Of a stretch of 35,653 bases of DNA, positions 7,031 to 15,747 are shown piece after piece. Origin of the DNA: a bacterium (GTDB taxonomy: Bacteria; Desulfobacterota_D; UBA1144); the NCBI GenBank assembly GCA_002708105.2, contig PAOQ02000003.1, positions 1 through 35,653 of the forward strand, written 5' to 3'. Positions within the stretch are counted from its first letter, which is position 1. The number at the start of each line of letters is the position of its first letter. Under the pieces are notes generated by a model. The model ran no database searches, was not told where the DNA came from, and saw only the letters and a list, made by a program, of their open reading frames with translations. Made by a program: the position numbers and the translations under genes.

Positions 7031-7510
7031 TTATTTCACTTTTTTGTATAGCTCTATAATTCTTTTCTTTAAATCTTTTTCTAAAGTCATCCTAATAAGT
7101 TTGGTGAAGCTAGCGTTCTTTCCATTTGTGCTAAAATTAATTTTAATGTCTTTGTTTACATTTACAGTGGAGGTAAAAAAGAAGTCATTATCTTCTTTAT
7201 CAGATGCATTACAAACGAAGATTTTTTTTGATTTACCGTAGGCGGCTATATCTTTATTTATTTTTTTATCATCAGTACAAGCAAGAATAAAATCTTGTTT
7301 CTCTATATCGCTTTTTCTAAATTTTCTTTTTATAATTTTTAAGTTTTTATTTTTTTCTTCTAGTCTTTCCAAAGTTGTTGTGATTTTAGGTGATACAAGT
7401 TTAACCTCTCCCATTTCATCTAATATTTTTTTTACTCTTCTAGTCGCAACTTTTCCGCCTCCAACGATAAGCCATTTTTTTGATGTGAGATTAATATTTA
7501 AATTAAGCAT
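7031..7510 (-). CDS. Siroheme synthase N-domain protein (precorrin-2 dehydrogenase/ferrochelatase-like), short
   Basis: Resembles the Met8p/CysG N-terminal module that oxidises precorrin-2 to sirohydrochlorin with NAD and can insert iron. Seen: KKWLIVGGGKVATRRVKKIL (residues 11-30), the Rossmann GGGxVAxRR signature. Then KLVSPKIT, FILACTDDKKINKDIA and VCNASDKEDNDFFFTSTV, where the Asp after NASD is in the region of the catalytic Asp of the family. It ends soon after GKNASFTKLIRMTLE, so at 159 residues it lacks the complete C-terminal helical region of longer homologues. No uroporphyrinogen methyltransferase gene is in the window. It starts within the last 8 bases of a small membrane-protein gene, so translation is probably coupled. 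Function is by family; whether it does one or both reactions is unknown. Confidence 0.85.
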   Translation of the reverse strand: MLNLNINLTSKKWLIVGGGKVATRRVKKILDEMGEVKLVSPKITTTLERLEEKNKNLKIIKRKFRKSDIEKQDFILACTDDKKINKDIAAYGKSKKIFVCNASDKEDNDFFFTSTVNVNKDIKINFSTNGKNASFTKLIRMTLEKDLKKRIIELYKKVK

Positions 7511-7676
7511 TTATAAGATTATAGAATAAAATAAAAATTAGATATAGGATAGGCAAAACAATTCCTATTACTGAGATATATATATAAACCTTTAGAATTT
7601 TCTTAGCTTTATATCCTGGAACAGCGACAGCCTGTTCCTTAACTTTGTTTAGTAAATTCTTTATAGTTTTAATCAT
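7503..7676 (-). CDS. Small predicted membrane protein (57 residues), unknown function
   Basis: An intact small reading frame running from an ATG at 7676 to a TAA at 7503. The product starts MIKTIKNLLNKVKEQ, has a basic stretch GYKAKKILKVY (about residues 21-31), and then a single strongly hydrophobic segment of about 22 residues (IYISVIGIVLPILYLIFIL and on), ending NLINA. The cytosolic N-terminus is positively charged, so an N-in orientation is likely. It overlaps the stop of the GYD gene by 8 bases (ATGATTAA) and the start of the siroheme-domain gene by 8 bases (ATGCTTAA). These precise overlaps on both sides strongly suggest a real, coupled gene. I do not recognise the family. Confidence 0.7.
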   Translation of the reverse strand: MIKTIKNLLNKVKEQAVAVPGYKAKKILKVYIYISVIGIVLPILYLIFILFYNLINA

Positions 7677-7965
7677 TTTCAATATTTAGTTTTTCTATAA
7701 AATCGTCAATAGCAATTGCAGGTAATGTAGTAATTTGTAATGTGCCACGTGATGTGAGCTCAATTGAAAGCTTGCTAATTGCTTCATTATTAGGCGCTTC
7801 AACAATATTAACAAAATCAAACGGGCCTAAGGTGGCGAATTGACCTAGAATTTTTATTCCCATAGCCCTTATTTCAGTGTCAACTTCTTTCATTCTCGCA
7901 GGCCTTTCTTTTAACGTTCTTCTGCCCAAAGTTGTTAAAGAAGAAAGTAATATATATTTCTGCAT
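7669..7965 (-). CDS. GYD-domain protein
   Basis: A 98-residue protein resembling the GYD family (a ferredoxin-like alpha/beta fold of unknown role). Seen: the N-terminal strand KYILLSSLTTLGRRTLKERP, where family members have a Thr-rich strand and a helix with Arg/Pro. Then VDTEIRAMGIKILGQFATLG, GPFDFVNIVEAPNNEAISKL and LTSRGTLQITTLPAI, all matching the usual family layout. The ATG at 7965 follows a GGAGG sequence at good distance. It is the first gene of a tight three-gene set with the small membrane protein and the siroheme-domain protein. Family members are usually annotated without a function, so I assign none. Confidence 0.8.
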   Translation of the reverse strand: MQKYILLSSLTTLGRRTLKERPARMKEVDTEIRAMGIKILGQFATLGPFDFVNIVEAPNNEAISKLSIELTSRGTLQITTLPAIAIDDFIEKLNIEND

Positions 7966-7982
7966 ATATCCTCCAATGCTAA

Positions 7983-8010
7983 TTACATGGTAGAGTTTAT
8001 CTGATATTAT
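7983..8010 (+). promoter_or_regulatory. Possible promoter for the 8027 gene
   Basis: TTACAT (7983-7988), 16-base spacer, TATTAT (8005-8010), with the ATG 17 bases after the -10 box. This lies in the 61-base divergent gap to the GYD gene. The fit is fair rather than strong and the region is AT-rich. Confidence 0.4.
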
Positions 8011-8026
8011 TTTTTAACAAAATACT

Positions 8027-9499
8027 ATGAAAAAATTAAATTACATAATATTAATATTTTCACTATTGATTATACCTCTTTTAGGACAATTTGCTGTCAG
8101 CGCTGAAACAGCGAATTCCAATAACGAAAATGAGATAAAAAGAAACATTAATGAAATTGATGATATAACTAAAGTTGTTGTTTCTGAATTTAGATGGAAG
8201 CAAAAAACAAAAGGCATTCCTGGTATTTTTGATTATGTAGAAATAAATAATAAATTAACTGTAGACATTAAAGATGTAAGAATAGAAGTTTTGGCCTATG
8301 ACAGCAAAGGCATACTTTATAAATTTCTTATTCCTATTAAGGGCGAAATAAGGGGTAATAGTAAGAAGCGATTTTATTCAATTCTAACACCAATCTTAAA
8401 TCTTTTTCCTGACGAGACAATGGTAAATGTTGAATCAGCTAAATTGTCTTATCAGTCAGACAACTTAAAGATAAAAGCAAAGAATGCAATAAAAATTAAT
8501 AATTTTGATTATATTGTTGAGAATATTGCTTCCGAGACTGTTCAGGTTAAAGAGCTAGATTTTATAAATGAAAGTTCAAATTATTTTAAAGATATAGTTT
8601 TTTCTATTGAGTTTTATGACGAGAAAAATAAGTTAATAAATTCGGTTCCATTTAAAGTGCGAGGGGTAATTGGTCCAAAAGAAAAGAAAGTTGCAAAGAA
8701 TTTTCAGATTCCTGGAATTAATATAAAATATTTTTCAGAAGTGAAGTTATCAGTATTTAAGGGAGACTTGATTGATGCAAAAGAGTATATATCAGAAGGT
8801 GGAGATTCAAAGTTAGTTGATGAGTCTAACCTACGGGATTCTAGAGCATTACCTCGTAAAGATATTAAAATTAATGATTTTAAAATTATAAATAAGTCAA
8901 AAAATACAATAGGTCTTATAAATATAGATTTAACAAATAGAAGTAGATTTAAATATGAAAATATAGTTTTATCAATTGGTTTTGAAAATAAATCTGGAAA
9001 TACATTTACTTCCAAAAAAATCAGGATAAAAGATATCCTTTTACCTTATTCAACTAAGAATTTTATAAATGCTGAATTTGGTTTAGTTGATAATGATTTT
9101 GCAAAAATCAATCTAGCTATTTTGTCTGCTGATATGATTGGTAGCGTTAAAGAGGTTAAAAAGAGTAAGCCAAATAATATGATTAAAAATAAAAGAATCA
9201 CTAAAGATTTAAAGGCCTTTAAAGGAAACAATGAATTAATAATATTAAATTCAAATCTTGGCACTTTAACTTCAGTCCGAGTATTGAATGTTTCAGACAA
9301 TAAAATATTTAATCCAGTTTTTGAAATTAAACTTTTGGATGAAAATTCAAAAAATCTTAAAACGTTATTAATTAAAGGAGAAGGCCCGATTGATTCAAAA
9401 AAAGAAAGAACCTATAGATCAATTAAAATTCAAGATTTCAACTCTTACGAATATGTAAATTATACTATTGAATTTATCTCTGGGGAAAAATTAAAATAG
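8027..9499 (+). CDS. Secreted four-repeat beta-domain protein, unknown function
   Basis: I do not recognise a named family. The 490-residue product starts with a clear signal peptide (MKKLNYIILIFSLLIIPL, then LGQFAVSAETA, cleavage probably near residue 26). The mature part seems to hold four copies of an about 90-residue beta-rich unit, at roughly 51-142, 160-245, 282-370 and 403-487. Each contains an Asn-rich turn, a DI/NI/NP step, alternating hydrophobic strands and an acidic turn: NNKLTVDIKDVRIEVLAYD, NESSNYFKDIVFSIEFYD, NRSRFKYENIVLSIGFEN, NVSDNKIFNPVFEIKLLDE. Each is followed by a strand and a polar turn such as GEIRGNSKKRF or GVIGPKEKKV. The pattern recalls immunoglobulin-like FxLYD-type domains, but that is inference. 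Lys-rich and probably periplasmic. It lies 36 bases before mreB, which appears to have its own promoter. Confidence 0.8.
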   Translation: MKKLNYIILIFSLLIIPLLGQFAVSAETANSNNENEIKRNINEIDDITKVVVSEFRWKQKTKGIPGIFDYVEINNKLTVDIKDVRIEVLAYDSKGILYKFLIPIKGEIRGNSKKRFYSILTPILNLFPDETMVNVESAKLSYQSDNLKIKAKNAIKINNFDYIVENIASETVQVKELDFINESSNYFKDIVFSIEFYDEKNKLINSVPFKVRGVIGPKEKKVAKNFQIPGINIKYFSEVKLSVFKGDLIDAKEYISEGGDSKLVDESNLRDSRALPRKDIKINDFKIINKSKNTIGLINIDLTNRSRFKYENIVLSIGFENKSGNTFTSKKIRIKDILLPYSTKNFINAEFGLVDNDFAKINLAILSADMIGSVKEVKKSKPNNMIKNKRITKDLKAFKGNNELIILNSNLGTLTSVRVLNVSDNKIFNPVFEIKLLDENSKNLKTLLIKGEGPIDSKKERTYRSIKIQDFNSYEYVNYTIEFISGEKLK

Positions 9500-9500
9500 A

Positions 9501-9530
9501 TTGAAAAAAACTCTATATGAATCATACTAA
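9501..9530 (+). promoter_or_regulatory. Possible promoter for mreB, implying a leaderless mRNA
   Basis: TTGAAA (9501-9506), 18-base spacer, TACTAA (9525-9530). Only five bases separate the -10 box from the mreB ATG at 9536, so transcription would start at or within a base or two of the ATG. No Shine-Dalgarno sequence is visible before mreB. An alternative is that mreB is read through from the upstream gene. Confidence 0.4.
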
Positions 9531-9535
9531 TTTTG

Positions 9536-10591
9536 ATGAAAAAAACTAATTATTCAATCTGGGACCGCCTTGCTAATTATTTTTCTATTGATATTGGACT
9601 TGATCTTGGTACCGCAAATGTTGTTGTTTATGTAAAAGATCAAGGAATAGTTGCGAATGAACCATCAGTTGTTGCTGTGCAAATTGATAAAGCTGGAGAA
9701 GTGAATATCTTAGCTGTAGGTGATGAGGCGAAACAGATGATAGGGAAAACGCCAGGCAGTATTGAAGCTATAAGGCCCTTAAAAGAAGGAGTTATTGCAG
9801 ATTTCGAAGTAACTCAAAAAATGTTGGAGTATTTTATATCTAAATATCATAAAAATAATTTTCTTGTTAGACCAAGAGTTGTAGTTTCAGTTCCTATAGG
9901 TATTACGCCAGTTGAAAAGAGAGCAGTTGTTGAAGCCGCTGAATCTGCAGGTGCACGAGAAGTCTATTTAATTGAGGAAACTATGGCTGCAGCATTGGGA
10001 GCTGACATGGACTCTGTTCTTAATTCTAGAGGTGGAATGATAATTGATATCGGAGGTGGAACAACTGGAATCTCAGTTATTTCTCTCGGAGGGCTTGTTA
10101 TCAGCAGATCTATAAAAACTGCAGGTGATTCTATGAATTTAGCAATTATAAATTATGTTAAGAATACTTACGGACTTTTAATTGGTGAAAACATGGCTGA
10201 AAGTGTTAAGAAAACAATATGTGATGTAACAGATGTCCCAAGTGAAAGTTTAAAAATGTCTGTAAGAGGAAGGAGTTTAGAATCTGGTCTTCCAGAATCA
10301 ATTCAATTGACAGCAATCGACACCAAAAGAGCATTAGATGAGTCAGTAATACATATTATAAATACAGTAGTTGAAACTTTGGATGCTACTCCCCCTGAAC
10401 TATCTGGAGATATTATGGTTGATGGTATAGTACTTGCAGGTGGCGGTGCTTTGTTGGGAGGTCTTTCAGAAAGACTGTCAAAAGCGACTAGATTAAAAGT
10501 AACAGTGGCAGAAGATCCTTTAATGTGTGTTGTAAGAGGCTGTGGTAAAGCTCTAGAGGAAATTAATACATTAAGAAAGATTTCACTTTAA
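9536..10591 (+). CDS. mreB: Rod shape-determining protein MreB
   Basis: Bacterial actin that forms membrane-bound filaments and positions the elongasome. The ATPase phosphate-1 motif reads IGLDLGTANVVVYV (about residues 20-33), followed by NEPSVVAV. Then VVVSVPIGITPVEKRAV, LIEETMAAALGA, the phosphate-2 motif MIIDIGGGTTGISVISLGG and the adenosine motif GIVLAGGGALLGGL. A TTG lies directly before the ATG in the same frame; I chose the ATG at 9536 (351 residues), giving MKKTNYSIWDRLANYF. The amphipathic N-terminal stretch IWDRLANYF may help membrane binding. It heads the mreBCD-mrdA-rodA operon. Confidence 0.97.
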   Translation: MKKTNYSIWDRLANYFSIDIGLDLGTANVVVYVKDQGIVANEPSVVAVQIDKAGEVNILAVGDEAKQMIGKTPGSIEAIRPLKEGVIADFEVTQKMLEYFISKYHKNNFLVRPRVVVSVPIGITPVEKRAVVEAAESAGAREVYLIEETMAAALGADMDSVLNSRGGMIIDIGGGTTGISVISLGGLVISRSIKTAGDSMNLAIINYVKNTYGLLIGENMAESVKKTICDVTDVPSESLKMSVRGRSLESGLPESIQLTAIDTKRALDESVIHIINTVVETLDATPPELSGDIMVDGIVLAGGGALLGGLSERLSKATRLKVTVAEDPLMCVVRGCGKALEEINTLRKISL

Positions 10592-10598
10592 TTATTAA

Positions 10599-11321
10599 AT
10601 GTTATCTAAACGAAACCAAAAAAAACTTCTTTTAATTTTAATTACGATTTTATTTATTACTGGATTCTTTCTATTGAATTTCAATTTTTATTTATCAAAT
10701 TTTATGATTTCAAATTTCTCTTATAAAAGTGATTATCTATCTAATGTAAATAACCTAAAAGAAAAAGTATCTGATTTAGAGATCAAGATTAAAATTCAAG
10801 AGGCATTAATTGCAGAAAATAAATCTTTAAAAAAACAACTCAATCTTAAAAATAGTAACTTTAAGTTTTTAAGTGCCGAACTAACTGTTGTCTCTCCGTA
10901 CACTTTTGCATCTACTGGAATTATTAATTTAGGATTGAATGATCAAATCAAAAAGGGTCAATTAGTAATTAAACCTGAAGGTTTAGTTGGTAAGATATCA
11001 GTTGTTAATGATGAATTTTCTGAGGTAATTTTTACTTTTAATCCTGGTTTTACTTTAATGGTTTTTGTTGGGGAAAATAATGTTCCTGGAATCCTTAAGG
11101 GAAATGGTGTTTCTTCAAGGATTAAGTATGTTACGAATGATAAGAAAATCAAAATAGGAGATAAAGTTTTTATTGGGAATAATAGTAAAGAAAATTATCC
11201 AAATATTCAGATAGGTACAATTTCGGAAATTGTTGATAATCGTGGCTTCTTTGATTTGAGCATAAGTGATTTAGCCGATCCTAGAAACTCAAAATATATT
11301 TCCGTAATTAGATATGATTAA
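10599..11321 (+). CDS. mreC: Rod shape-determining protein MreC
   Basis: Bitopic membrane protein of the elongasome that binds and activates PBP2. The 240-residue product has a basic N-terminus (MLSKRNQKK) and one transmembrane anchor (LLLILITILFITGFFLLNF, about residues 10-28). A coiled coil follows at about 47-85 (VNNLKEKVSDLEIKIKIQEAL, ENKSLKKQL), then two beta-barrel domains. Family features include GIINLGLNDQIKKGQLVI, EGLVGKISVVNDEFSEVIF and VGDKV-like IGDKVFIGNN near the end. Slightly shorter than the average MreC (270-300). It starts 7 bases after mreB and its stop overlaps the mreD start in ATGATTAA. Confidence 0.93.
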   Translation: MLSKRNQKKLLLILITILFITGFFLLNFNFYLSNFMISNFSYKSDYLSNVNNLKEKVSDLEIKIKIQEALIAENKSLKKQLNLKNSNFKFLSAELTVVSPYTFASTGIINLGLNDQIKKGQLVIKPEGLVGKISVVNDEFSEVIFTFNPGFTLMVFVGENNVPGILKGNGVSSRIKYVTNDKKIKIGDKVFIGNNSKENYPNIQIGTISEIVDNRGFFDLSISDLADPRNSKYISVIRYD

Positions 11322-11820
11322 TCAATATTCTTCTTTTCTTTTTTTAATCTTTATAGGATTGATACTGTTGCCAATTTACCCGAACTCGGGTTCATTAGAT
11401 TTTGGTGGCCACGTAGACGTTTCTATAGTTTACATACTTATCTTAATATTTACTGGAAATAATAAAAGTAGGCTGATGTATGGTTCATTGATCTTAGTTT
11501 TCTATTTCTTATTAGCGGATACGTATGGTTTGATAGAGCTAGGAACAAAGTTGGTAGTTTTTTATTTATTTATAGAATATATAGAAAGATTCTTTTGGAA
11601 AAATATTCAAAACGAAAGTCTTTTAATTCTATTGTTTTTAACCGTTTTCTATTCTCTAAGTTTTATAGTTTATAAAATTGGTTTTAATATTGGACTTTAT
11701 GAATTTTTATCCTTTATATGTTTGCCATTCATCTACAATTTTTTCGTTTCCTTGATTTTATTGATTATAATTAAATATACCTCATGGCCAAAAGTGAACG
11801 ATCAAGTCTATCGATTTTAA
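11314..11820 (+). CDS. mreD: Rod shape-determining protein MreD
   Basis: Small polytopic membrane protein of the elongasome. The 168-residue product is almost all hydrophobic, with five to six predicted membrane segments, and shows the loose MreD pattern (LPIYPNSGSLDFGGHVDVSI, then an acidic/aromatic loop YIERFFWKNIQNE). Sequence conservation in MreD is weak, so the call rests mainly on topology, length and its place between mreC and mrdA. It overlaps mreC by 8 bases and its 3' end overlaps the mrdA start by 37 bases, an unusually long in-operon overlap. Confidence 0.85.
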   Translation: MINQYSSFLFLIFIGLILLPIYPNSGSLDFGGHVDVSIVYILILIFTGNNKSRLMYGSLILVFYFLLADTYGLIELGTKLVVFYLFIEYIERFFWKNIQNESLLILLFLTVFYSLSFIVYKIGFNIGLYEFLSFICLPFIYNFFVSLILLIIIKYTSWPKVNDQVYRF

Positions 11821-13553
11821 TAGTTTCCCTTTTATTAGCAGTAATAATATTAAGACTGTTTTATATTCAGCTAATAAATGGTTATGAGTATCGAAGAATA
11901 TCAAATAATAATTTTCTCAAAGAAGTTATAGTCCCGTCTCCAAGAGGAACTATCTATGATAGATTTGGAAAAGAGATTGCCCACAGTAAAGCTGTTGTAA
12001 ATTTATACTATAAGCATAATACGAAAGATAATATCTCTAATTTAAGAGGGTTCCTTAGTAGTGACTTGGAAATAGAAAAGAAATTTCTTAATAAGATAAT
12101 TAAGAAATCAAAGTTGGGAAGCAATATAAATAAAAGATTTTTATTAAAAGAAGATTTAAAATTAGAGAATATATATAAAGTTGAGAATAAAATAAGCTCT
12201 TATCAATCACTAGAGTTAGTTGTTGACTACTTAAGAGTATATCCATTTGATAGAGTGGGCTCTCATAAAATTGGTTATTTAAAATCCAATGATAAAAGAG
12301 ACATCGTCTATGGGTCTTTCCTCTCAAATAGATTGGGGGCCTCAGGTCTAGAAAAGATTTTTGACAATGATTTGAGAGGTGAAAGTAATTCTAGATTTTT
12401 GTTAATTGATAATAGAGGCCGTGAAGTTAGATCTAAAATTTTAAGTTTTGAAAAAGAGGCTAACGATTTCAAGCCAGGTGAAAATTTAAATTTAACAATC
12501 GATATAGAGATGGAGAAGCTGATTTACTCATCTTTTGGAAACTTTAATGGTGCTGCTGTTGTACATGATATTGAGACTGGAGAAATTCTTGCCCTAGTAA
12601 GCAAACCTTCTTTTAATCCGAATGATTTTTCAAAAACTATTTCACAAAAGAAATGGAAAAGTATTCAAAATCAATCAAATAAACCCTTTTTAGATAGATC
12701 TTTTCTATCATCAAATCCCCCAGGATCAATAATTAAGATAGTGACTGCTGTTGCAGCATTAGAGGAAGATGTTGTTACTTCGGAGACTGAGCATTATTGT
12801 AAAGGATACTATGAATTAGGGGGTAGAAAGTTTAGATGTTGGAAGCAAGGCGGACATGGAAAAGTGAATGTTGTTAAAGCTTTAATTACTTCGTGCGACG
12901 TCTTCTTTTATAAAGTAGGCCTATCATTAGGGATTGATAGGTACTCAAAATGGCTAAAGAATTTTGGATTTGGAGAAAAAATCAATACTTTGTTTTCACA
13001 AAATTCTGGTGTAATTCCAAATAAAAATTTTATTAATAGATTCCTTAAGGGTAAGTGGTATAAAGGGGATATGGTCAATGTTGCAATTGGTCAAGGTTAT
13101 TTAACAGTTAATCCAATTCAAGCATCAATAATGACATCTATAATAGCTTCTAATGGAGAATATCCAGAATTAAAAGTTGTAAAAAGTTCGAAAAATAATA
13201 AACAAAAAAATTTAAAAATTAAGAAAAGGAATTTGTTATTAGTTCAAAAAGGTTTGCTTGGTGTTGTAAATGAAAGAGGGGGCACAGGATTTCATGCTTT
13301 CGATGATGGCCAGTTAGCAGGAAAAACAGGAACAGCGCAGGTAATTTCTAAGAGCTCTAGAGAATATAATTTGGGTAAATTTAAAAATCACGGTTGGTAT
13401 ACCTCATATTATCCTTATACAAATCCTAAAATTGTAATAACAGTTTTTGTAGAAAACGGTGTCTCAGGAGGTAGTTCCGGCGGACCAATAATAAAAAGAA
13501 TAGTGAAGTACTATAAGAAAAATTATATGAGTAATAAAGGTGAAACTAATTGA
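11784..13553 (+). CDS. mrdA: Penicillin-binding protein 2, elongasome transpeptidase
   Basis: Class B PBP that cross-links peptidoglycan during cell elongation. One transmembrane anchor lies at about residues 9-28. The pedestal domain includes SPRGTIYDRFGKEIA (52-66). Transpeptidase motifs: SxxK as S315-I-I-K318 in NPPGSIIKI, SxD as S370-C-D372 (typical of PBP2), and KTG at 514-516 in GKTGTAQ. Cys 339, Cys 352, His 358 (in GGHGKVN) and Cys 371 lie where a zinc site has been described in PBP2 proteins, so a zinc-stabilised fold is plausible. Length, 589 residues, is normal. Its start lies inside mreD and its TGA overlaps the rodA TTG start by 4 bases. Confidence 0.96.
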   Translation: MAKSERSSLSILIVSLLLAVIILRLFYIQLINGYEYRRISNNNFLKEVIVPSPRGTIYDRFGKEIAHSKAVVNLYYKHNTKDNISNLRGFLSSDLEIEKKFLNKIIKKSKLGSNINKRFLLKEDLKLENIYKVENKISSYQSLELVVDYLRVYPFDRVGSHKIGYLKSNDKRDIVYGSFLSNRLGASGLEKIFDNDLRGESNSRFLLIDNRGREVRSKILSFEKEANDFKPGENLNLTIDIEMEKLIYSSFGNFNGAAVVHDIETGEILALVSKPSFNPNDFSKTISQKKWKSIQNQSNKPFLDRSFLSSNPPGSIIKIVTAVAALEEDVVTSETEHYCKGYYELGGRKFRCWKQGGHGKVNVVKALITSCDVFFYKVGLSLGIDRYSKWLKNFGFGEKINTLFSQNSGVIPNKNFINRFLKGKWYKGDMVNVAIGQGYLTVNPIQASIMTSIIASNGEYPELKVVKSSKNNKQKNLKIKKRNLLLVQKGLLGVVNERGGTGFHAFDDGQLAGKTGTAQVISKSSREYNLGKFKNHGWYTSYYPYTNPKIVITVFVENGVSGGSSGGPIIKRIVKYYKKNYMSNKGETN

Positions 13554-14656
13554 TTGATTATTTAAGAAAACCTGAGGGAAAAATTTTTAGTTTTGGGTTT
13601 TTAATAATGTTGCTGGGTTTAGTTAATCTTTTTTTCATTAGAAATGAATCTTTCTTTAATTCCTATTCGTTTAAGCAGTTGATCTGGATAATCATTGCTG
13701 GATTAATTTATTTTATAGTATCAAGATTTAGGTTGCAGACTCTTAAGCAAATTTCTATACCTTTTTATATCATAACTTTAATTCTGCTACTCTTTGTTTT
13801 AATTTTTGGGGATGAGATATCTGGTGCAAAGAGTTGGATTAGAATAGGTTCTTTTATGTCTTTCCAGCCATCTGAATTAGTTAAAATTTCATTTATCTTT
13901 ATTATTGCAAAATTTTTTTCAGATCTAGGTGTTTATTCGAGATCATTAACAATTAAATATCTTTTAGGATTTACTTTCTTCTTTATACCGTTTTTCCTTA
14001 TAATGCTTCAGCCAGATTTGGGCTCGGGATTAATGCTATTAATAATTTCTCTTTGTACCATAATCAGTTTTTCTTATAATAAGAAGGTTCTAATAACTTT
14101 ATGCATACTAATTACTGTCTCTGGCTTTCCAATATGGAATTATGGCCTGGAAGATTATCAAAAACAAAGGATTATTAGTTTTATGGCCCCTGAAAAGGAT
14201 CCTTCAGGCTATGGATATAATGTAATTCAATCAAAGGTCGCTGTAGGGTCCGGAGAATTATTTGGTAAAGGTTTTGGAAACAGCTCTCAAGGAAAGCTGA
14301 AGTTTTTACCAGAGAAACACACTGATTTCGCTTTTTCAGTATGGGCTGAACAAACTGGATTTTTTGGGTCTTTACTTTTAATTGGACTTTATGGTTTTAT
14401 AGTTATTTTTTCATTAACATTTTTACAAAAAATTAAGGATTTATTTCTTCAAGTATTACTTTTTGGCTTGAGTACATATTTCTTTTTTCATTTATTGATT
14501 AATGTTTCAATGACAATTGGACTCTTTCCTGTTGTTGGCATCCCATTATTAATGTTTAGTTACGGGGGCTCTTCGTTAATGTGCGGAGCTTTAGCGTTGA
14601 GTCTAATATCGTTAATTATTAGTAATTATAAGGATGTTAATAGGTTGGGCTTATAA
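13550..14656 (+). CDS. rodA: Peptidoglycan glycosyltransferase RodA (SEDS)
   Basis: SEDS-family membrane enzyme that polymerises lipid II into glycan strands together with PBP2. The 368-residue product has about ten membrane helices. Family landmarks are GAKSWIRIGSFMSFQPSELVK, LQPDLGSGLML, the large periplasmic loop with PEKDPSGYGYNVIQSKVAVGSG, EKHTDFAFSVWAEQTGFFGS (with the catalytic-region acidic residue) and GIPLLMFSYGGSSLM. The start is a TTG at 13550, overlapping the mrdA stop (TTGA), with AAAGGTG at a good ribosome-binding distance. birA begins immediately after the stop codon. Confidence 0.95.
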   Translation: MIDYLRKPEGKIFSFGFLIMLLGLVNLFFIRNESFFNSYSFKQLIWIIIAGLIYFIVSRFRLQTLKQISIPFYIITLILLLFVLIFGDEISGAKSWIRIGSFMSFQPSELVKISFIFIIAKFFSDLGVYSRSLTIKYLLGFTFFFIPFFLIMLQPDLGSGLMLLIISLCTIISFSYNKKVLITLCILITVSGFPIWNYGLEDYQKQRIISFMAPEKDPSGYGYNVIQSKVAVGSGELFGKGFGNSSQGKLKFLPEKHTDFAFSVWAEQTGFFGSLLLIGLYGFIVIFSLTFLQKIKDLFLQVLLFGLSTYFFFHLLINVSMTIGLFPVVGIPLLMFSYGGSSLMCGALALSLISLIISNYKDVNRLGL

Positions 14657-15439
14657 ATGTTCACAAAATTACGTGAAAAAATATTATCTAAAGAATTTCT
14701 TAGTTCTAAAATTAAAAGAATTATTATTTTAGATTCTGTAGATTCGACTAATAATTATGGACAATTATTAGATAGACCTTTGGATGGAACTATTGTAATT
14801 GCGAATAACCAAACAAATGGAAAGGGAAGAAATGGTAGAGAGTGGAAGTCATTTAATGAAAAAAATATTGCAATTTCAATGATTTTAAATTATCCGAAAT
14901 CCAATGAGCACATAGGACTTACATCTATTTTGACAGCAAATTCTGTTATTCAAACTTTAGAAATGCTTGATTTTTATCCGAGAGTGAAATGGCCAAACGA
15001 TATTTTAATAAATTCTAAAAAAATATCAGGAATTTTATCTGAAGCAGTTTTTAAAAATAATAAAGCTAAATCTTTGATAATTGGAGTTGGTATAAATGTT
15101 AATTGTGGTTCAAGCGATTTTTTTGAAGGTAGTTTTGATTATAGGATAGACCCTACAAGTATGTTCTTGGAAAAAAATTGTATTTTTTCAAGAGAAGATG
15201 TAATTGTAAGTTTTTTAGAAAATTTTTTTAAATGGGTGGATGAATTTAAATGCAAAAATTTTGAAACCATATTAGATTTTTGGTTATCCAGATGGGACGA
15301 GATTGGAAAAAATATCTCTATAGTAAAAAATGGAAAGAAAATAAATGGAAATATATATAATGTAAACACTAAAGGGGAATTGATATTACAAGTTGACAAC
15401 AAAGAGATTGTCATTAATTCTGGAGAGATTTTAGTTTAA
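14657..15439 (+). CDS. birA: Biotin--[acetyl-CoA-carboxylase] ligase, no DNA-binding domain
   Basis: Attaches biotin to the carrier subunit of acetyl-CoA carboxylase and related enzymes. Seen: the substrate motif DSVDSTNNYG (26-35), the biotinyl-AMP loop NGKGRNGREW (54-63), VKWPNDILIN (110-119) with KKISGILSEA (121-130), and a C-terminal SH3-like domain ending GELILQVDNKEIVINSGEI. With 260 residues and no N-terminal helix-turn-helix it is a class I ligase, not the E. coli repressor type. The ATG directly follows the rodA stop codon, so it is part of the same transcript. It converges on the next gene with a 4-base overlap. Confidence 0.93.
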   Translation: MFTKLREKILSKEFLSSKIKRIIILDSVDSTNNYGQLLDRPLDGTIVIANNQTNGKGRNGREWKSFNEKNIAISMILNYPKSNEHIGLTSILTANSVIQTLEMLDFYPRVKWPNDILINSKKISGILSEAVFKNNKAKSLIIGVGINVNCGSSDFFEGSFDYRIDPTSMFLEKNCIFSREDVIVSFLENFFKWVDEFKCKNFETILDFWLSRWDEIGKNISIVKNGKKINGNIYNVNTKGELILQVDNKEIVINSGEILV

Positions 15440-15747
15440 ATAATTTTTGTGATTTCGTCTTTTAATTTTGTCATTAATTCTGTCCACTTCTCACCACTTT
15501 TAAAGTCATTAATTGGCAGTTCTTTGTTTATCTCAATTCCATTTGGAATAATGCTAATATCGTAATTCTTTTTCTTTTTCAGAATCTCACCAAACTTTAT
15601 TAGAGCTTCTATGCTTTCTTCATCTTTACCTTTAAATGTAGTTCTAAGATTAATATTTTGATCCATACCTTCATATAAAAGATTCCACATGGAGCCAGGT
15701 GTAGTAAGGCCAAATCTTAACTCAATTCTTTTATTTTTATTAATCAT
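15436..15747 (-). CDS. Hypothetical protein (103 residues)
   Basis: I do not recognise it. The product begins MINKNKRIELRFGLTTPGS, contains MWNLLYEGMDQNINLRTTFKG, a charged helix EESIEALIKFGEILKKKK, then YDISIIPNGIEINKELP and an amphipathic C-terminal helix. No signal peptide or membrane segment is visible, so it is probably a small cytosolic alpha/beta protein. It is a single gene on the minus strand between birA and rluD, with its stop codon overlapping that of birA by 4 bases and about 50 bases separating it from rluD. Conserved-looking composition and an open frame of 103 codons in AT-rich DNA make it likely real, but no function can be given. Confidence 0.6.
   Translation of the reverse strand: MINKNKRIELRFGLTTPGSMWNLLYEGMDQNINLRTTFKGKDEESIEALIKFGEILKKKKNYDISIIPNGIEINKELPINDFKSGEKWTELMTKLKDEITKII

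Follow-up and report, generated by a model that had tools for sequence, protein, structure and literature searches.

In a 35,653-nucleotide stretch of contig PAOQ02000003.1 (the window), an open reading frame located exactly at 8027–9499 on the forward strand encodes a protein of 490 amino acids, called X here. The gene is preceded by a divergent GYD-domain gene and followed on the same strand, 33–36 nt after its stop codon, by mreB and the other genes of the elongasome operon (Table 1); mutL and efp recur further upstream of the X and GYD genes. Signal-like N-termini, read by eye in the window protein and its orthologues, suggest that X is exported. The window's genome (G000) is a 0.91-Mb draft in 24 contigs. 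The host belongs to Dadabacteria and its nearest named relative is TMED58 ("Deltaproteobacteria bacterium TMED58", G001), whose X is 98% identical to the window X; "Candidatus Dadabacteria bacterium UBA1144" is also among the X-bearing relatives. Elsewhere in the window, an ORF of 59 aa lies between the sirC-like and GYD genes (7503–7682, minus strand); it has a single hydrophobic stretch and probably encodes a small membrane protein. A 103-aa ORF between birA and rluD (15436–15747, minus strand) has no Pfam match at the default cut-off and is 94% identical to G001, while its neighbours are 58–68% identical.

Table 1. Features of the X locus, in coordinates of the window
Feature	Position	Strand	Basis or remark
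Gene X, 490-aa secreted tandem FxLYD-like protein (putative export)	8027..9499	+	ORF; orthologues in 55/57 class genomes
Signal-peptide-like N-terminus of X, residues 1-25	8027..8101	+	Sequence reading: KK, hydrophobic core, AVSA; helix in AlphaFold model
Domain D1, residues 48-143	8168..8455	+	Universal in aligned class rows
Domain D2, residues 152-250	8480..8776	+	Universal in aligned class rows
Short conserved helix after D2, residues 248-262	8768..8812	+	Class pattern roughly (I/L)SxKE; candidate contact site
Domain D3, residues 277-374	8855..9148	+	Universal in aligned class rows; in most other families after a long K/E-rich linker
Domain D4, residues 402-490	9230..9496	+	Window's family only; profile kinship to the other domains
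GYD-domain gene, 98 aa, divergent from X	7669..7965	-	PF08734, E 2.6e-24
mreB	9533..10591	+	PF06723, E 1.8e-126; first start TTG 9533, ATG at 9536
mreC, mreD (by position; no Pfam match at default cut-off), mrdA (PBP2), rodA	10599..14656	+	Context
Putative single-cistron recombination tract common to the window and TMED58 (G001)	7979..9534	.	20 differences in the 1473-nt gene, 0 in the gaps

A contig profile search with six close X sequences gave 6 loci. Across the class, X was found in 55 of 57 genomes, counting as X-bearing G018 (a two-piece match in one 623-aa frame) and G032 (cut by a contig end). It was not found in G047 (89% complete), and G056 (74% complete) contains a single-domain match of 145 aa only. 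Outside the class, none of 329 genomes gave a match at E<=1e-4 with a 21-row profile, which matched 53 of 386 genomes, all of them from the class, and missed three family members that a 34-row profile found; the class restriction is therefore a statement about these 329 genomes rather than all bacteria, made with a profile of limited reach. With 55/57 genomes inside the class and 0/329 outside, X looks like a class signature. It is retained even in genomes of 0.8–1.1 Mb.

The first-pass annotation had described four divergent copies of a β-domain, and both family profiles and an AlphaFold model bear this out. In single-sequence alignments compared with 2000 shuffles, D2–D3 (z 9.7) and D2–D4 (z 6.2) stand out, and the remaining four domain pairs are at chance. 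Profiles of the window's family compared with hhalign recovered all six pairs, with probabilities of 52.6–97.9% (D3–D4 being the weakest), and the three class-wide domains match one another at 99.7–99.9%; the maximum among column-reversed decoys was 15.8% (49 comparisons). Of the Asn-rich turn and acidic turn that the same annotation assigned to each repeat, the asparagine is real, as N75, N181, and N304 occupy equivalent places in D1, D2, and D3 and are invariant in 34 orthologues, but the acidic turn is less constant. The best conserved segment of X that is not β-structure is the short helix following D2.

The number of domains differs within the class. In the 34-row alignment A1, D4 is present in 13/13 rows of the window's family and in 0/21 other rows, and in all 21 of the latter X consists of D1, D2, a linker, and D3, and then ends. 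The linker between D2 and D3 is long and K/E-rich in most of the non-family rows and short in all 13 family rows. The usual X is thus a three-domain protein, and the fourth domain is confined to the window's streamlined family with genomes of about 1 Mb.

The AlphaFold model of the window X (34 sequences; mean pLDDT 81.4, overall pTM 0.41) presents a run of about six strands four times over, that is, four predicted Ig-like units. A model of the three-domain orthologue L059 contains three domains (mean pLDDT 73.1). Among solved structures, fold comparison places X closest to the Ig-like domains of GH2 enzymes and transglutaminases, with Z values of at most 7.6, which unrelated arrangements also reach, and these matches may reflect a common arrangement only. 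X thus shares a general β-sandwich likeness with the Ig-like domains of GH2 glycosidases and with transglutaminase C-termini but, unlike them, carries no attached enzyme, and it has no sequence kinship to any PDB chain: searching the PDB by sequence gave no match for the single protein or for a 45-row domain profile. The β-sandwich fold names no function, X has no recognised functional domain, and no catalytic site was noticed in it.

The annotation knew no family with this architecture. Our results showed that the domain itself is FxLYD-like: 20 of 21 class orthologues match NCBIfam FxLYD (NF038353) at E<=1, the best at 4.1e-9. Scanned singly, L055 (23.5 bits) and L063 (26.0 bits) exceed the curated 23-bit cut-off, L062 (22.1), L044 (20.5), L033 (17.9), and L052 (14.0 bits) fall under it, and L067 has no match. 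The window protein scores 13.5 bits (E 0.049), also under the cut-off. As orthologues pass and the window protein does not, we call the domains FxLYD-like without making the window protein a formal member. In the models of the window protein and of L059, the domains are β-sandwiches of about 70–100 residues, as expected for FxLYD. The likeness further includes a conserved Asn followed by an (F/A)YD-like strand, which D1 and D2 of the window protein show clearly; X differs in having three or four tandem copies, and those of the window protein are too diverged for the cut-off. No Pfam family applicable to X was found, either with the window protein (weak matches only) or with its orthologues. 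We know of no function for the FxLYD domain, and a literature search on FxLYD and on combined domain terms returned nothing relevant.

Related domains occur elsewhere in the larger Dadabacteria genomes. These encode small single-domain relatives of about 136 aa, apparently exported, the closest of which matches the D2 part of the X profile at E 8.2e-29, and a DUF4136 protein into which a D2-like domain is inserted. In the cases fetched, both kinds lie on contigs separate from X. The insert sits in the middle of the DUF4136 proteins (L123 646–1602, L124 705–1658, and L125 637–1611; Pfam match in L123 and L124). Neither the small FxLYD paralogues nor the DUF4136 form was found in the window's streamlined family.

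We then compared X between the window and TMED58. The two genes are 98.6% identical (20 differences in 1473 nt), whereas the genome background averages 76.6% over 180,654 compared nt, out of 262,549 nt sampled from the window's genome. The tract of identity, which corresponds to L031 6513–8068, includes both intergenic gaps without a single difference, has its edges about 15 nt or less from the start codon of each neighbouring gene, and is flanked by sequence about 75–80% identical. A regression over the family's other pairs predicts that X should be about 59% identical in nt between these two genomes, which leaves a residual of 39.3 points (SD 1.63), and these roughly 24 residual SDs are not a formal probability, as the regression pairs have genomes in common. 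Among the neighbouring products, MreC is 52% and MreB 95% identical between the two genomes. Of the differences inside X, 12 are synonymous and 8 non-synonymous, a pattern that fits a constrained gene. From these comparisons, a recent exchange of X as a single cistron has apparently taken place between the window's species and TMED58.

Identity above 92% over 300 nt between these two genomes was observed in four places: X, a tRNA cluster (L106), a stretch of L098 in an ORF that we take to be ATP synthase subunit c (atpE), and 371 nt of L107. The last of these (L107 666–1036 against L078) is 98% identical and lies at contig edges. X was also considered as a general recombination hot spot and rejected as such: the next largest residual is 6.6 points in the family, and among the pairs scored for 11 g6 genomes none exceeds 3.5, the twelfth (G031) being left out for missing background genes. 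Since a second exchange was found neither in the window's family nor in the scored g6 pairs, we do not claim a hot spot. Separately, G010 (L040) is a mosaic, nearer to G007 (L039) from uL25 to about the end of mreB and nearer to G011 (L041) from mreC onwards, which shows that recombination occurs at this locus but is not centred on X.

Such an exchange could mean that X is exposed at the surface as an adhesin or receptor, perhaps one targeted by phages or predators, and that its alleles are swapped between species as new variants are favoured. This is possible, if doubtful. A tract of one cistron with both gaps, 39 percentage points above expectation, is consistent with it, and few genes of the locus evolve faster than X, whose rate is about that of mreC and mreD. 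Ig-like repeats are common in surface proteins, and the top Foldseek row for X is an adhesin repeat (6xi3, E 1.8e-6), although with a TM-score of 0.11. However, there is one exchange only, with no comparable outlier in the other family pairs or in the scored g6 pairs, and the differences between the shared alleles are not replacement-rich. Bacterial Ig-repeat adhesins have long, near-identical repeats and a surface anchor; the repeats of X are divergent, which by itself decides neither for nor against membership. No membrane anchor is seen in the sequence of X. Viral contigs also argue against this reading, as two alignments (302 and 28 pattern matches) revealed no relative of X there.

The tract could instead be an assembly chimera, in which X from a TMED58-like population that shared the sample was built into the contig of the window's species. 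TMED58 is titled as a MAG and the window's genome is itself a 24-contig draft, both of which would allow this. Nevertheless, a chimera requires two independent false joins, one at each end of a single gene. Exact matches at the edges are short, as only 17 nt separate the differences at 7960 and 7978 and more differences follow outside, and with 59–61% nt identity within the genus X otherwise offers little room for shared k-mers. Moreover, as the alleles differ at 20 sites, the sequenced TMED58 would not itself have been the donor. We consider a chimera unlikely and infer that the exchange is real.

The position of X next to mreB raises another alternative, namely that X serves the elongasome as a dedicated accessory, partnering MreC, PBP2, or RodA in the periplasm and organising side-wall synthesis. 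In the window's family the two genes are adjacent on the same strand in 14/14 genomes, with an operon-like gap of 28–55 nt in the 13 other than the window's. This spacing, together with a consensus scan that found 16 sites against 12.2 +/- 3.3 in shuffles, gives no support to the first-pass suggestion that mreB has its own promoter; promoter and terminator scans were at chance. Beyond the family, mreB is within 3 kb of X in 3 of 41 genomes (17 of the 55 X-bearing genomes overall): G043 and G046 (f5) and G040 (f7, with one GGDEF-HD gene between), so that three families show the linkage. A further 31 X-bearing genomes have an mreB match away from X, and in f2, f3, f4, f6, and most of f5 mreB is either away from X or not found. 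The linkage to mreB from which an envelope role had been proposed is therefore not lost in all relatives, yet it is a local trait.

In 7 of the 55 X-bearing genomes there is no mreB match (E<=1e-30). Six of these seven (G017, G020, G030, G038, G045, and G055, G053 having MreC) also lack an MreC match, in a search of 17 genomes whose control recovered MreC from 8 of 14 reference genomes. Completeness is 90–96% for five of the six and 59% for G055. A gene may go missing from a draft assembly, yet G017 and G030 each consist of one contig, and the two f3 members agree. As X is kept in six genomes without mreB and MreC matches, it appears not to depend on the elongasome. The divergent GYD gene is a steadier neighbour than mreB: of 42 X-bearing genomes in which GYD has a match, 41 have it adjacent to X, and in the sole exception (G031) X is at a contig edge. 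GYD is not required either, given the 13 X-bearing genomes without a GYD match. X is probably an envelope protein, as first proposed, but one independent of the elongasome, and a dedicated accessory of that machinery is quite improbable.

Least probable is that X binds a polymer, peptidoglycan or another, that Dadabacteria are believed to scavenge: the fold matches do include GH2 Ig-like domains, but these act as structural linkers, and X has no match to carbohydrate-binding families. The trait that would favour it, peptidoglycan degradation across Dadabacteria, is reported in a published genome survey (PMC8115339).

The explanation that we find somewhat probable, taken as a whole, is that X is a housekeeping envelope scaffold or binding protein with a history of fixation in an operon and an exchangeable allele. 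X would be a single-copy protein of Dadabacteria, exported by its signal peptide to the periplasm or the cell surface. There, its three (here four) Ig-like domains of FxLYD type may form a rod that binds or spaces other envelope components, as a scaffold or binding protein and not an enzyme; sequence and fold point to this location and role. The window's family of streamlined ocean bacteria would have lost the long charged linker that separates D2 from D3 and gained a fourth domain, and X would have become fixed just upstream of mreBCD-mrdA-rodA, probably on one transcript with mreB. X would work without need for the elongasome and would not be a core part of it. It could also be replaced whole by homologous recombination, as suggested by the one recent allele common to the window's species and TMED58.

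A bolder reading, which we regard as rather doubtful, is that nearly every Dadabacterium needs X and that the streamlined ocean lineage passes its allele between species as a whole cistron, gap to gap, since the exposed variant decides survival, for example through phage or predator recognition. X would then be an exchangeable coat component heading a cell-shape operon. The exchange permits no bolder reading than this surface-variant one, and a lone event does not establish it.

As an apparently exported, single-copy protein kept down to genomes of about 1 Mb, X is a good candidate for a lineage-specific envelope part overlooked by metabolic surveys. The tract, with its sharp edges, makes gene exchange across roughly 24% divergence testable in ocean metagenomes.
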